This document shows positions 44,089 through 62,724 of a stretch of 64,000 bases of DNA, piece by piece; positions within the stretch are counted from its first letter, which is position 1, and every line of letters begins with the position of its first letter. The stretch comes from a virus. Under the pieces are notes generated by a model. The model made no database searches and was not told the origin of the DNA. It saw only the letters and a program-made list of their open reading frames with translations. The DNA is taken from IMG/VR virus record IMGVR_UViG_3300050821_006280, positions 45,559-109,558 of that record; one strand, 5' to 3'. The position numbers were made by a program, and so were the translations under genes.

Positions 44089-44160
44089 GTCCCCTTAGCT
44101 TAATTGGTAGAGCGCTGCGCTGAAGACGCGGAGACCTCGGTTCGATCCCGAGGGGGGACA
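44089..44160 (+). tRNA. tRNA-Phe(GAA)
   Basis: Acceptor GTCCCCT/GGGGGAC, anticodon arm CTGCG-CTGAAGA-CGCGG, T-loop TTCGATC. The intact Phe gene next to an insert-bearing Phe tRNA. Confidence 0.9.
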
Positions 44161-44166
44161 CAATAT

Positions 44167-44298
44167 GCACCTGATGGTCAACGGTAGACCACCATCCTGA
44201 ACAGATGGCAAATCAAATACCAGGATTGCACCTCGGCTCCTTACGGAGCCAACTAGTGATCCTCACAAGCAGAGAAGGTTCGACTCCTTCCAGGTGCG
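44167..44298 (+). tRNA. tRNA-Phe(GAA) with 65 nt variable-loop insert
   Basis: The tRNA body is complete: acceptor GCACCTG/CAGGTGC, D arm GGTC/GACC, anticodon arm CCATC-CTGAACA-GATGG, T arm GAAGG-TTCGACT-CCTTC. The variable region spans 44209-44273 (65 nt, normal about 5). It forms AGGAT/ATCCT, CAC/GTG and GGCTCC/GGAGCC helices (44222-44263). The same insert occurs in the next two tRNAs. It may be spliced, tolerated, or make this a specialised RNA. Confidence 0.7.
44209..44273 (+). ncRNA. structured insert family, copy 1
   Basis: Helix A 44222-44226/44259-44263, helix B CAC/GTG, internal loop CTC facing AACTA, helix C GGCTCC/GGAGCC with a TTAC loop, then CACAAGC. The helices covary with copies 2 and 3. 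Confidence 0.65.
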
Positions 44299-44304
44299 CA
44301 ACAT

Positions 44305-44434
44305 GGCGCGTATGGGGATGGTCCCCAGCTCTCTTCCAAAGAGTGCAATATCCAGGATGGCACCTCGGCTTGAATAACAAGCCAACCAGCGATCCTCACA
44401 AGCTTTGTCGGTTCGATTCCGGCACGCGCCTCCA
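44305..44434 (+). tRNA. tRNA-Gly(TCC) with 62 nt variable-loop insert
   Basis: Acceptor GGCGCGT/ACGCGCC, D arm GGGG/CCCC with a short loop, anticodon arm GCTCT-CTTCCAA-AGAGT, T arm GTCGG-TTCGATT-CCGGC, encoded CCA. The variable region is 44345-44406. An intact tRNA-Gly(TCC) exists at 46338. Confidence 0.7.
44345..44406 (+). ncRNA. structured insert family, copy 2
   Basis: Helix A AGGAT/ATCCT (44354-44358/44392-44396), helix C GGCTTG/CAAGCC, internal loop CTC facing AACCA, then CACAAGC. Helix B has one A-C mismatch here (CAC/GCG). Confidence 0.65.
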
Positions 44435-44446
44435 CAGTAGCAACAT

Positions 44447-44582
44447 GGGTGAACACAGAGGGAGGGTCCCTCGCCAGCCTTGATAGCTGGAGCCAAAAGC
44501 TCCCAGAATCACACCTCGATCTCAGCAATGGGATCAACTCGTGGTTCTTACACGCCATCCGGTTCGACTCCGGGTTCATCCA
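44447..44582 (+). tRNA. tRNA-Ser(TGA) with 67 nt variable-loop insert
   Basis: Acceptor GGGTGAA/TTCATCC, D stem GAGGG/CCCTC with a 5-nt loop, anticodon arm CCAGC-CTTGATA-GCTGG, T arm TCCGG-TTCGACT-CCGGG. The variable region is 44491-44557. Ser tRNAs normally have a 15-20 nt arm, so the excess is about 50 nt. An intact Ser(TGA) is at 58932. Confidence 0.65.
44491..44557 (+). ncRNA. structured insert family, copy 3
   Basis: Helix A AGAAT/GTTCT (44505-44509/44544-44548), helix B CAC/GTG, helix C GATCTC/GGGATC, internal loop CTC facing AACTC. Base changes relative to copies 1 and 2 keep the pairing. Confidence 0.65.
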
Positions 44583-44595
44583 CTGATTTGTTTTT

Positions 44596-44670: not shown

Positions 44671-44701
44671 TTGAACGGGTTCGATTCCCTCCCTGGGCAC
44701 T
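44671..44701 (+). pseudogene. tRNA 3' fragment
   Basis: A T-arm-like GGG-TTCGATT-CCC followed by CCTGGGCAC, the same ending as tRNA-Leu(TAA) at 54719, but with no 5' half. A remnant left by recombination. Confidence 0.5.
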
Positions 44702-44790
44702 ATCCTGTGGTAAGATCAAATGGAGCGCAGATGCAGGTAATCGCCTCGACGTTCTCCAGTCTGATCTTTACCCCAGGGCTTTCTTCCGAT

Positions 44791-45174: not shown

Positions 45175-45255
45175 CCAACGCTGTTTCGGTGGATCGGTCC
45201 GTTTTTGTTGTAACCGGATTGATCGACCTCCGTATGGATGATACTGTGCTCTGTA

Positions 45256-45690
45256 ATGCGAGAGCTTAGTCACCACACGAAGGATAAAGGCGATCAAGGA
45301 GTCGGGTTCGTGATCGCTTCGCTTCTTTCCCACAATATCAAGATTGCTCTTCCGCTAAGTGAACATCTTCCGTTTGATCTGATTGCAATTTCTACTTCAG
45401 GACAAATGCGAAAGGTGTCAGTTAAGTATCGTGCGGAAAGAGATAGCAAAATTGAGGTAAGACCAGAAAGTAATTGGTCGAACGCAAAACAGTTCTGCAC
45501 TCGCAAATACGAGCCAGGCGAAGTCGATGCATATGCCATCTACTGTCCTAATACAAAGACGTGCTATTTTGTTCGGGAGTCAGATGCACTTCATGGAATC
45601 ATTCTTCGCATGGAACCGCCAGGCAACGGCCAGACAAAGGGCATACGAATGGCGAAGGATTTCGTAGATCCAAATTCGATATTTGTATAG
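45256..45690 (+). CDS. PD-(D/E)XK homing-endonuclease-like protein, 144 aa
   Basis: Start at the Met of MRELSHHTK. HTKDKGDQGVGFVIASLL, then LPFDLIAISTSGQMRKVSVKYR, gives the Glu/Asp ... Asp ... Val-x-Lys order of the PDDEXK_5 family that includes intron-encoded enzymes such as I-Ssp6803I. No intron is visible. It stands just upstream of tRNA-Ser(GCT), 7 bp away, so it may home into tRNA genes. Confidence 0.65.
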   Translation: MRELSHHTKDKGDQGVGFVIASLLSHNIKIALPLSEHLPFDLIAISTSGQMRKVSVKYRAERDSKIEVRPESNWSNAKQFCTRKYEPGEVDAYAIYCPNTKTCYFVRESDALHGIILRMEPPGNGQTKGIRMAKDFVDPNSIFV

Positions 45691-46337: not shown

Positions 46338-46413
46338 GCGGGTGTAGCTCAATTGGTAGAGCGCTAGCCTTCCAAGCTGGATGCTGTCGGTTCGAGTCCG
46401 ATCGCCCGCTCCA
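46338..46413 (+). tRNA. tRNA-Gly(TCC)
   Basis: Acceptor GCGGGTG/CGCCCGC, anticodon arm CTAGC-CTTCCAA-GCTGG, T-loop TTCGAGT, encoded CCA. Intact counterpart of the insert-bearing Gly(TCC) at 44305. Confidence 0.9.
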
Positions 46414-46986: not shown

Positions 46987-47038
46987 TCCAGTGTAGCTCA
47001 GTCTGGACAATTACCCAACTGTCTCGTAGTTTTGCTGC
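46987..47038 (+). pseudogene. tRNA 5'-half fragment upstream of homing endonuclease
   Basis: TCCAGTG-TA-GCTC-AGTCTGG is a tRNA 5' end nearly identical to tRNA-Asn at 47446 (TCCAGCG-TA-ACTC-AGTTGG). It ends just after an anticodon-loop-like stretch where the endonuclease ATG begins. No 3' half follows. Confidence 0.65.
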
Positions 47039-47455
47039 ATGAAAAACGATCCAAAAGCCAAAGGGGAGCGATCGGAGGCTATGGTTCTAGCGGCACTTCT
47101 GCGAAGTGGCAAGTCCGTTCTGCGACCGTTCGGTGATAACGAGCGATACGATCTAGTCATTGACGACGGCGAAAAATTCTCCAGAGTTCAATGCAAAACA
47201 GCACGTCGGGTTGGAAACGTCCTTAAATTCGACACGTGTTCATCGTATTCGCACCGCGGTGGGAAGAAAAAAGACTACCGCGGCCAGGTTGAGTTCTTTG
47301 GCATCTACAGTCCAGATGTCGATCGTGTATTCCTTGTTCCAGTCAGTCATGTTGGTACCACGAGCGCATCGCTTAGACTTACTCCGACTGTTAATGGCCA
47401 GCATGTCAACGTTAGGCTTGCTAGCGATTATGAATTGTCTTTCATTCCAGCGTAA
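47039..47455 (+). CDS. PD-(D/E)XK homing-endonuclease-like protein, 138 aa
   Basis: AKGERSEAMVLAALLRSGKSVLRPFGDNERYDLVIDDGEKFSRVQCKTARR follows the PDDEXK_5 pattern: Glu in the first helix, Asp in RYDLVI, and Q-C-K as the (D/E)xK. This family includes tRNA-intron endonucleases. The gene begins where a tRNA 5' half ends. Its last codons (Ile-Pro-Ala-stop) are read from the first ten bases of tRNA-Asn. Confidence 0.75.
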   Translation: MKNDPKAKGERSEAMVLAALLRSGKSVLRPFGDNERYDLVIDDGEKFSRVQCKTARRVGNVLKFDTCSSYSHRGGKKKDYRGQVEFFGIYSPDVDRVFLVPVSHVGTTSASLRLTPTVNGQHVNVRLASDYELSFIPA

Positions 47456-47735: not shown

Positions 47736-47808
47736 GCGAGAGTAGCTCAGCTGGTAGAGCGCATCCTTCCCAAGGATGATGTCGTGGGTTCAAATCCCAT
47801 CTCTTGCT
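47736..47808 (+). tRNA. tRNA-Gly(CCC)
   Basis: Acceptor GCGAGAG/CTCTTGC, anticodon arm CATCC-TTCCCAA-GGATG, T-loop TTCAAAT. Confidence 0.9.
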
Positions 47809-47810
47809 CC

Positions 47811-47899
47811 GACGGCAGTTGGTGTTTGGAGCTTCCCCCGAGCGGAGACGTTCGGAGGATGACGAGCTAGCGGAAGCAGTTCGTCGCCACCTGCCGTCC
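47811..47899 (+). ncRNA. tRNA-sized structured element without T-loop
   Basis: GACGGCAG (47811-47818) pairs with CTGCCGTC (47892-47899), then GGTG/CGCC extends the stem. Two hairpins lie inside: CCGAGCG-gaga-CGTTCGG and GACGA/TCGTC. 89 nt between tRNA-Gly and tRNA-Glu with no ORF. Confidence 0.4.
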
Positions 47900-47908
47900 A
47901 TTTCCACG

Positions 47909-58167: not shown

Positions 58168-58218
58168 CAACCTGTCAGAAATGAGGGCTAGGTGCGTCCT
58201 AGCAGAAAGGAGGCGGTC

Positions 58219-58836
58219 ATGAGTATGGCCCTTCAAAGTACACGGACACTGCTTCTCTCCAATGCCTACGAGCCGATTCAGGCCATCTCCTTGAAGAGGG
58301 CAATGACCCTGCTGTTCAATGGCAAGGTCGAGGTCATCGAGGAGTACGACTGGAACATCGTACCTGTCCCTTCCGAGATTCAGACGGATGTGCAGGTAAC
58401 GCATGGCAATGAGCGTAGGACGGTCAAGCGTACGATGATCGTCTTCAAGGCTCCTGCCGTCGTTCGTCTGCTTACCGCCTTCATCCGCCGCCGTAGGCCG
58501 ATAAAGTTCTCGCGCGTGAACATCTATGCTCGTGACCGTTACACGTGCCAGTACTGCGGTACCAAGAGGACATTGGCGGAGCTGACGTTCGACCACGTCA
58601 TCCCGAGAAAGCTTGGGGGCAAGACGACGTGGACGAATATCGCAACGTCGTGTGGTACTTGCAATCTGAAGAAGGGTGGTCGTACGCCGGAGCAGGCCGG
58701 CATGAAGCTGCTGAAGCAGCCTGTGCAACCAACCTGGCAGTCCGCCATCGCCGTCACCGTCAGCAGTACATCGGTGCCGGATGCATGGAGGGATTACCTG
58801 TACTGGACTGGCGAGCTAGAGAACGACAACTCGTAG
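58219..58836 (+). CDS. HNH endonuclease, 205 aa
   Basis: AAAGGAGG precedes the ATG. The N-terminal half (LLLSNAYEPIQAISLKRAM) and the HNH core DRYTCQYCGTKRTLAELTFDHVIPRKLGG then TSCGTCNLKKGGRT define the widespread HNH family of bacterial chromosomes and phages. It is larger than the tRNA-linked homing types here, so it may be a packaging-associated or defence nuclease. Confidence 0.82.
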   Translation: MSMALQSTRTLLLSNAYEPIQAISLKRAMTLLFNGKVEVIEEYDWNIVPVPSEIQTDVQVTHGNERRTVKRTMIVFKAPAVVRLLTAFIRRRRPIKFSRVNIYARDRYTCQYCGTKRTLAELTFDHVIPRKLGGKTTWTNIATSCGTCNLKKGGRTPEQAGMKLLKQPVQPTWQSAIAVTVSSTSVPDAWRDYLYWTGELENDNS

Positions 58837-58931
58837 TCAATCATAGTCGTGCCACGGGATGGCCACCTGGAAGCATGACGCCTTAGCCGTGTGGCCCCTA
58901 CGTAAAAAGGGGCTCCCTTCATGGGGATTTT

Positions 58932-59018
58932 GGAGGAATGGCAGAGCCTGGTTTATTGCGCCGGTCTTGAAAACCGGAGTGGGTAAGACCACCGGGGGTT
59001 CAAATCCCTCTTCCTCCG
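58932..59018 (+). tRNA. tRNA-Ser(TGA)
   Basis: Acceptor GGAGGAA/TTCCTCC, anticodon arm CCGGT-CTTGAAA-ACCGG, class II variable arm, T-loop TTCAAAT, discriminator G. Intact counterpart of the insert-bearing Ser(TGA) at 44447. Confidence 0.9.
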
Positions 59019-59060
59019 CCCAGTCTGTCACACAAGAATCAAAGATCTCGTTACATCATT

Positions 59061-59176: not shown

Positions 59177-59181
59177 ATTTT

Positions 59182-59288
59182 GCTAGGGTTCTTGGTAGGA
59201 GCTGCGGGTCCCGCTCGATCGGCGATGTAGACTCGGGAGTCGAAATCTGATCGGTGCCGCAGTGCTGGTTCGATTCCAGCCTCTAGCT
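59182..59288 (+). tRNA. tRNA-like gene with about 40 nt insert, identity unclear
   Basis: Acceptor GCTAGGG/CTCTAGC and T arm GCTGG-TTCGATT-CCAGC are canonical. CTGCGG/CCGCAG can serve as the anticodon stem but encloses about 49 nt, including CGATC/GATCG and GACT-cggg-AGTC helices. The anticodon is not assignable. Confidence 0.45.
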
Positions 59289-59331
59289 GTCCTTCCAATT
59301 ATCGATCGGATCAATCACAATCGTAGTCAAG

Positions 59332-59861: not shown

Positions 59862-59868
59862 CTGCTAT

Positions 59869-59980
59869 GGTGGCGGTTCAAGTGGTCTTGGGCGGGTAGC
59901 TCCCGCAACTTGAGAGTTCGATTCTCTCAGCCCGGAAGGGTTCCTGGCTGGAGGATTGGGTTCGATTCCCACCGTCACCC
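59869..59980 (+). tRNA. composite tRNA-like gene with two T-arm hairpins
   Basis: GGTGGCGG pairs with CCGTCACC around 112 nt. It contains TCAAGT/ACTTGA enclosing GCGGG-tagct-CCCGC, a T-arm-like GAGAG-TTCGATT-CTCTC, an AGCC/GGCT hairpin, and a second T arm TGGG-TTCGATT-CCCA. It may be a tRNA with another tRNA's 3' part inserted. No anticodon can be assigned. Confidence 0.4.
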
Positions 59981-60031
59981 CCTAGAGGAGCAATGGAAAG
60001 GTACCCTGAAGATCTAGTCAAGGAGCGCTCC

Positions 60032-62112: not shown

Positions 62113-62348
62113 TGCGCCGACTCATCCTGCTTGTTGTGATTGTGGCGGCTTGCACGAAATCTGCACCGATTCCTGTGGCGGACGATCGAGCCGGTTACAT
62201 CCACAAGATCAAAATCGAGCTGGACACTCACCAGCGGATATTCGATTCGGAGAATCAGCTGGCGCGTAAGTACTGTGATCAGCACAAGGACATCAGCGAG
62301 TGCGGAGAGGTCATCAGTAAGCTCCCGCCGCTGCCGCCACAACCATAG
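62112..62348 (+). CDS. small lipoprotein, 78 aa
   Basis: MRRLILLVVIVAAC is a lipoprotein signal with lipobox VAAC. The mature protein is short and helical with a Cys pair (YCDQHKDISEC) and a Pro-rich end (LPPLPPQP). Size and Pro-rich end resemble an outer spanin (Rz1-like), but the partner is not obvious. Confidence 0.65.
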   Translation: MRRLILLVVIVAACTKSAPIPVADDRAGYIHKIKIELDTHQRIFDSENQLARKYCDQHKDISECGEVISKLPPLPPQP

Positions 62349-62439
62349 GCGCAACACAAGGAAGGTCGACAATGGTCAAGTTCACGGCTGTGATGGAGAT
62401 AGTTGGCTCAAAGATTCCTCACGCCCGTGGAGGTACCAC

Positions 62440-62724
62440 TTGGCTAAAGTCAACCGGATGTTCAACCGCAAGCGGCGGGGACATCGGATAACCTTCCTGA
62501 TGTCGCGCGACGGAGCTAATTGCTCCATCTGCCATGACCTTCTAGATCGCCACATCCATGATTACCACGATCCTCGCTACATTACCTTCGACCATGTTGT
62601 ACCCCGGTCAGATGGGGGTCTGGATCATCTAACCAATCTCAGGCTCGCCCACCAGCAGTGCAACAATGAGCGTGGCAATGATCCAATCCACGTTTTCGAC
62701 GAAGGAATCGAGCTGGAGGACTGA
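62440..62724 (+). CDS. HNH endonuclease, 94 aa
   Basis: I start at TTG 62440, which has GGAGG six bases upstream. The core is CSICHDLL, then YITFDHVVPRSDGGLDHLTNL with QQCNNERGN, a compact HNH fold. A short frame from ATG 62372 overlaps its start in another frame and could be a leader peptide. Likely a free-standing homing nuclease. Confidence 0.75.
   Translation: MAKVNRMFNRKRRGHRITFLMSRDGANCSICHDLLDRHIHDYHDPRYITFDHVVPRSDGGLDHLTNLRLAHQQCNNERGNDPIHVFDEGIELED

Follow-up and report, generated by a model that had tools for sequence, protein, structure and literature searches.

A shared RNA module in tRNA genes of huge phages: fold, gene forms and possible role in tRNA processing

The IMG/VR virus record IMGVR_UViG_3300050821_006280 is a contig of 109,558 nucleotides (nt), of which the last 64,000 nt (positions 45,559–109,558, here called the window) were analysed. 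The window holds a dense array of about 44 genes for transfer RNAs (tRNAs) and transfer-messenger RNA (tmRNA), including three consecutive genes—for tRNA-Phe(GAA), tRNA-Gly(TCC) and tRNA-Ser(TGA)—that each carry an extra stretch of RNA between the anticodon stem and the T stem. What kind of RNA sits in these genes, and what becomes of it? We report that the inserts belong to a real, previously undescribed RNA family, here called the module, and weigh the possibility that it serves as a very small tRNA intron or processing element.

The interrupted genes, their inserts and the matching ordinary tRNA genes lie as follows (P1 and P2 are the two helices of the module; CTC and ACA[AC]GC are conserved motifs).

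44167–44298, + strand: tRNA-Phe(GAA), interrupted by the module in the variable loop; has acceptor, D, anticodon and T arms
44209–44273, + strand: Phe insert, 65 nt; P1 44223–44229/44256–44262; CTC 44232–44234; P2 44235–44240/44245–44250; ACAAGC 44265–44270
44305–44431, + strand: tRNA-Gly(TCC) with the module in its variable loop
44345–44406, + strand: Gly insert, 62 nt; P1 44355–44361/44389–44395 (one mismatch); CTC 44364–44366; P2 44367–44372/44378–44383; ACAAGC 44398–44403
44446–44584, + strand: tRNA-Ser(TGA); a small variable-arm hairpin precedes the module
44491–44557, + strand: Ser insert, 67 nt; P1 44506–44512/44541–44547; CTC 44515–44517; P2 44518–44523/44530–44535; ACACGC 44550–44555
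44089–44161, + strand: ordinary tRNA-Phe(GAA) isoacceptor (ARAGORN)
46338–46413, + strand: ordinary tRNA-Gly(TCC) isoacceptor (ARAGORN)
58931–59022, + strand: ordinary tRNA-Ser(TGA) isoacceptor (ARAGORN)

Unmodified, the three module-bearing genes gave neither an ARAGORN call nor a match to Rfam RF00005; only when each insert was swapped for 5 nt did ARAGORN call Phe(GAA), Gly(TCC) and Ser(TGA). The Phe and Gly inserts aligned with a local score of 33.5 (shuffles ≤18, n = 5000) and the Phe and Ser inserts with 16.5 (shuffles: mean 8.4, maximum 18), while the Gly–Ser score of 10.0 fell short of significance on sequence alone; no clear similarity was seen among the 5′ tRNA bodies. Together, these results confirm the proposal of an earlier note, made from the letters of the window, that three tRNAs carry homologous inserts of 62–67 nt. 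The Ser insert additionally has a variable-arm-like hairpin (AGC-CAAAA-GCT), and direct reading of the anticodon loops found uridine 33 (U33) kept in the window copies, with a pyrimidine at position 37 in Phe and Ser. The same note had reasoned that copies with ordinary isoacceptors are free to take on other roles: the isoacceptors are indeed present, but the inference is weak, because few ordinary tRNAs occur in the fetched array stretch of some module-carrying phages.

Fold and distribution of the module

Thirty-six variable-loop copies yielded the consensus (A)CCRG, P1, two free bases, CTC, P2 hairpin, A, 3–6 bases, P1′ and YYACA[AC]GC, usually followed by three bases and then the T stem. 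P1 comprises 7 base pairs (bp), with an eighth pair (A-U/G-C) that covaries, and reads GGATTGC/GTGATCC in Phe, GGATGGC/GCGATCC in Gly and GAATCAC/GTGGTTC in Ser. The P2 hairpin starts at the G of CTCG, and the A after it is mostly conserved. In the 36-sequence alignment, 91.0% of P1 and P2 cells were paired, against 67.1 ± 1.4% after shuffling (0/500 shuffles), a percentage inflated by the pairing filters with which most copies were gathered (P1 ≥6/7, P2 5/5). These filters do not inflate the diversity of pair types, and double-sided changes filled 118 cells, against 36.6 ± 7.0 in shuffles (0/500). Sliding the partner strand by one column lowered pairing to 45–47%.

Selection on RNA structure, which the earlier note had read from three copies, is thus strongly supported by covariation across 36. 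Of the helices it drew, the one corresponding to P2 was right; its other two, separated by a bulge, are better read as one continuous P1 of 7–8 bp (91.0% paired, compared with 80.3% for the note's register). Pseudogene decay was rejected as an explanation because the helices covary and copies with intact arms recur.

One set of 34 records gave 62 matches to R2, a model of the module, spread over 20 of them, and a further set of 26 gave 22 matches in 10. The resulting tally of 84 copies in 30 IMG/VR records is not a frequency, as the records were reached through motif hits and were not dereplicated. The three window copies, which scored 57.0, 52.6 and 49.3 bits, therefore have many homologues. 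Carriers are mostly phage contigs of about 70–530 kb with one to six copies each, and in the relatives that we read, the module adjoins a tRNA with arms of its own.

Rfam 15, searched at gathering and permissive thresholds, returned no family for the module; its matches were confined to tRNA and tmRNA for the window and to tRNA for the scanned relatives. BLAST searches against annotated phages, using a window insert and the arrays of three relatives, returned tRNA bodies only, or nothing. Neither RecA-relatives of the window phage nor Rhodococcus phage Trina had the module, and it was also absent from six named large phages and from five uncultured huge phages. A first, strict DNA pattern was abandoned, since its 31 loci on viral contigs were seemingly chance matches outside tRNAs. 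A scan of bacterial and archaeal genomes produced three hits, none matching R2; one of these (L272, accession JAKQDD010000002.1, from a Verrucomicrobiota bin) lies in a phage-like array with 12 tRNAs and three apparent split tRNA hits, and the contig probably represents a huge phage that ended up in a bacterial bin. The module is without a convincing cellular home. It is undescribed in the literature searched, with preprints and most subscription papers falling outside that search.

Gene forms, acceptor-stem junctions and RtcB

In about 15–20 relatives the tRNA gene is circularly permuted—the T arm and acceptor 3′ strand come first, then a short spacer, then the acceptor 5′ strand, D arm and anticodon arm—whereas the window copies keep the normal order. 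Spacers include GCTC, TTCG, GAAA, TACCA, or ACCA plus a linker, and CCA is sometimes encoded. As the 3′ half precedes the 5′ half, joining is needed to make a continuous tRNA from such genes. In a wrapped form, strand ii of the module (A-N4-P1′-YACA[AC]GC) comes first, followed by a whole tRNA and then strand i (CCRG-P1-NN-CTC), with P1 and P2 pairing across the tRNA.

The wrapped form was tested without selection on pairing among 1236 distinct ARAGORN tRNAs, 36 of which start at ACA[AC]GC. CTCG occurred within 60 nt downstream in 32 of these 36, against 216 of the 1200 others (p about 2e-19); a CTCG-anchored complement matched at 7/7 positions in 10 of the 36 (0.56 expected with shuffled partners) and at ≥6/7 in 18 (4.4 expected).

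Some permuted genes have the module inside the acceptor 5′ strand. In five of them, the 4 nt preceding the module, read on into the 3 nt that follow the bar in ACA[AC]|GC, pair with the acceptor 3′ strand at seven of seven positions, all of them Watson-Crick: AGGT|GCA (L157), GAGA|GCA (L184), GCGG|GCG (L189), GCGG|GCA (L266) and GAGG|GCG (L432; L557 duplicates this sequence and was not counted separately). The second exon always begins at ACA[AC]|GC, and such exact restoration of the acceptor in five genes points to one cut at that site. In 24 of 48 variable-loop copies, the stretch that begins with the G of ACA[AC]|GC and runs up to the T stem measures 5 nt, the normal variable-loop length.

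The ligase RtcB joins 2′,3′-cyclic phosphate or 3′-phosphate ends to 5′-OH ends. RtcB genes (PF01139) were present in 8 of the 24 first records and 7 of 12 further module carriers (15/36, with one carrier, G053, accepted by a motif hit and not by R2, and two positives, G002 and G050, being gene fragments), compared with 0 of 14 module-negative huge-phage records. Above 190 kb, the comparison stands at 11/21 module-positive against 0/14 module-negative records (Fisher p = 0.0009). The genes fall into two groups, of about 390–400 amino acids (about 410–420 bits) and about 470–490 amino acids (about 280–295 bits), and therefore probably do not derive from a single inheritance. ATP-dependent RNA ligases showed no excess in carriers (PF09414, 5/22 vs 8/14; PF09511, 1/22 vs 4/14). 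RtcB was less common than ATP-grasp ligases in a survey of 224 jumbo phages (PMC7824862). Genes for Thg1-like 3′–5′ polymerases, enzymes that could restore missing acceptor 5′ nucleotides, occur in four module-carrying phages (G007, G015, G016 and G020); such repair was rejected as an explanation of the missing nucleotides, as these genes were found in only 4 of 24 records.

Readings of the module

We would give an even chance to the reading that the module is a tiny tRNA intron or processing element, with two cuts beside the base of P1, joining by RtcB and ordinary end processing. Strands i and ii would fold through P1 and P2 in either transcript order; the 3′ cut would fall between ACA[AC] and GC and the 5′ cut, at a site that we infer, upstream of the CCAG-type motif; and RtcB of the phage or its host would then join the tRNA parts. 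In the window, the variable-loop inserts of tRNA-Phe, -Gly and -Ser would be removed, while permuted relatives would yield a circular pre-tRNA, opened at the tRNA ends. Cleavage, whether by the RNA itself or by an RNase, and joining are what we infer from the observed family, fold, gene forms, abutting acceptor halves and RtcB association. Among the functions suggested in the earlier note, a mini-intron fits these permuted genes, abutting halves and RtcB genes best, and a regulated tRNA found no support. The module's size, its tolerance of permutation and the chemistry of RtcB are compatible with a small ribozyme. More doubtful is the bolder claim of a third tRNA-splicing route, in which a self-cleaving RNA of about 55 nt, unrelated to group I or II introns or to the bulge-helix-bulge (BHB) motif, would, with RtcB, excise itself from the tRNAs of huge phages and mature their permuted and circular precursors.

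Several observations weigh against an intron or processing element. The RtcB controls were contigs at hand and not matched relatives, and the association is uncorrected for phage kinship, so shared ancestry may contribute; 10 of the 21 carriers above 190 kb lack RtcB, and the window contig, itself a fragment, yielded no RtcB gene. The splicing endonuclease family PF01974 appeared in 0 of 26 records; a host might supply such an enzyme, though the family is not expected in bacteria. Three of the five genes with abutting halves (L184, L266 and L189:2434) have a weak P1 (about 5/7 or less), so that the membership of L184, L189 and L266 rests on motifs and position. The acceptor halves of L230:2592 pair at only 6/7, and L246:11093 does not fit a cut at ACA[AC]|GC and would need another site. 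Five wrapped genes (L189:2780, L338:528, L068:3344, L556:7386 and L213:2440) have a 2–3 bp acceptor stub with no partner and would not yield a chargeable tRNA. The 5′ boundary in variable-loop copies could not be fixed, as no empty-site homologue of sufficient similarity was found. Lastly, 5-nt D loops, odd for an ordinary tRNA product, occur in 22 of 48 variable-loop copies, and U33 in only 16 of 40 seven-nt anticodon loops of such copies (A, C or G in 24/40), although some loop assignments are possibly off by one; a CGGTAAA loop, with G33, recurs in tRNA-Tyr(GTA)-like genes of four phages (L157, L141, L216 and L177).

These unusual loops, together with the acceptor-less stubs and the duplication of ordinary isoacceptors in the window, would suit a decoy or nuclease-resistant tRNA, which would retain the module, have a changed variable region and either escape or titrate host defences that cut tRNA (such as Retron-Eco7, Septu or VapC). 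We consider this unlikely: a functional tRNA must result if permuted genes with a spacer and encoded CCA, and the exact restoration of the acceptor, are to make sense, the wrapped and split forms mostly have U33 (17/25 and 12/16, respectively) and normal D loops, and RtcB would go unexplained. Short D loops could also have evolved alongside a module retained as a structural clamp, holding tRNA pieces together with no joining, like a two-piece tmRNA, or serving as an extra domain. Two-piece RNAs likewise show circular permutation with kept helices, but a module that juts out halfway along the acceptor stem would be expected to obstruct aminoacyl-tRNA synthetase, EF-Tu and the ribosome, and with the exact abutting of acceptor halves and the RtcB association this makes a clamp quite improbable.

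In 16 of the 36 wrapped tRNAs, ACA[AC] ends exactly at the called 5′ end, as would be expected of an end-processing signal or a self-cleaving leader or trailer that replaces RNase P-type processing, with variable-loop copies as side products; theta ribozymes also cut beside phage tRNAs (PMC10879173). Other wrapped genes, however, miss 1–5 nt at the 5′ end, and variable-loop insertion and permuted genes are left unexplained, so we rate this account as very unlikely. RNAs that bind a protein or ligand share the layout of a variable helix between two conserved internal loops, yet the idea that a regulator or packaging protein binds the module on an uncut RNA earns still less of our belief, given that in every example read the module adjoins a tRNA and is placed where joining restores that tRNA.

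Neighbouring features and known systems

One further gene lies among the tRNA genes close to the three module copies.

45238–45690, + strand: PD-(D/E)XK endonuclease gene (PF11645, E = 5.9e-26)

Its product is a possible mobility factor. A second PD-(D/E)XK gene (PF11645, E = 8.2e-34) at 47039–47455 is preceded by a truncated tRNA-like 5′ half at about 46991–47038, and HNH endonuclease genes occur in the array at 58192–58836 and 62140–62724. Two other tRNA-like sequences were seen in the window: one at 59181–59289, uncalled, with GCTAGGG/CTCTAGC ends, a good T arm and a long inserted arm; the other at 59866–59984, with a second T-arm-like hairpin nested in a GGTGGCG/CGTCACC acceptor-like stem and unrelated to the module. 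Strongly folding stretches between tRNAs lie at 44697–44785 and 47792–47902 (z about −3.2 and −3.6 with mononucleotide shuffles), other tested intergenic stretches being not clearly unusual.

If the intron reading is true, the module would be an RNA family with its own mode of interrupting and rejoining tRNAs, not known from bacteria, and a new class of ribozyme if it cuts itself. It would offer a concrete role for phage RtcB and link tRNA architecture to tRNA-targeting defence. Standard tRNA finders miss interrupted copies, so that the tRNA sets of huge phages are undercounted.

Among known systems, the class II variable arms of tRNA-Leu, -Ser and -Tyr occupy the same site between anticodon and T stems, but the module is 62–67 nt long, is conserved across unrelated tRNAs and is found not only in class I tRNAs such as Phe and Gly but also in Ser, where it stands beside a variable-arm hairpin. 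Group I introns of bacterial and phage tRNAs are also intervening RNAs, with homing-type endonuclease genes nearby; the module, by contrast, is 55–65 nt long, has no group I core (no Rfam match in the window or relatives) and lies outside the anticodon loop. Theta ribozymes, which resemble that of hepatitis delta virus (HDV), are double-pseudoknotted RNAs found 3′ of phage tRNAs (Kienbeck, 2024; PMC10879173). Like the module they are small structured RNAs adjoining phage tRNAs, whereas the module, a simple stem with two loops whose conserved bases are unrelated to theirs, sits within or around the tRNA and matched no HDV-like covariance model.

The BHB introns of archaeal and eukaryal tRNAs resemble the module in that one small motif serves tRNA insertions, permuted genes and the leader–trailer pairs of archaeal rRNA, and RtcB-type ligation is plausible. 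BHB consists of two 3-nt bulges around a 4-bp helix, however, while the module has a P1 of 7–8 bp between asymmetric conserved loops with fixed CTC and ACA[AC]GC, and occurs in phages of bacteria, with no PF01974 in 26 records. Permuted tRNA genes have so far come from algae and one archaeon, with no report from phages in the literature searched. In red and green algae and in Thermofilum they run 3′ half, spacer, 5′ half, with leader and trailer pairing, and RNase P and tRNase Z are proposed to open a circular intermediate (Soma, 2014; PMC3978253). The phage genes share this gene order, the spacer joining the acceptor ends and the terminal pairing, but they differ in that their junction motif is unrelated, the break may also fall in the acceptor 5′ strand, and whole tRNAs are wrapped as well.
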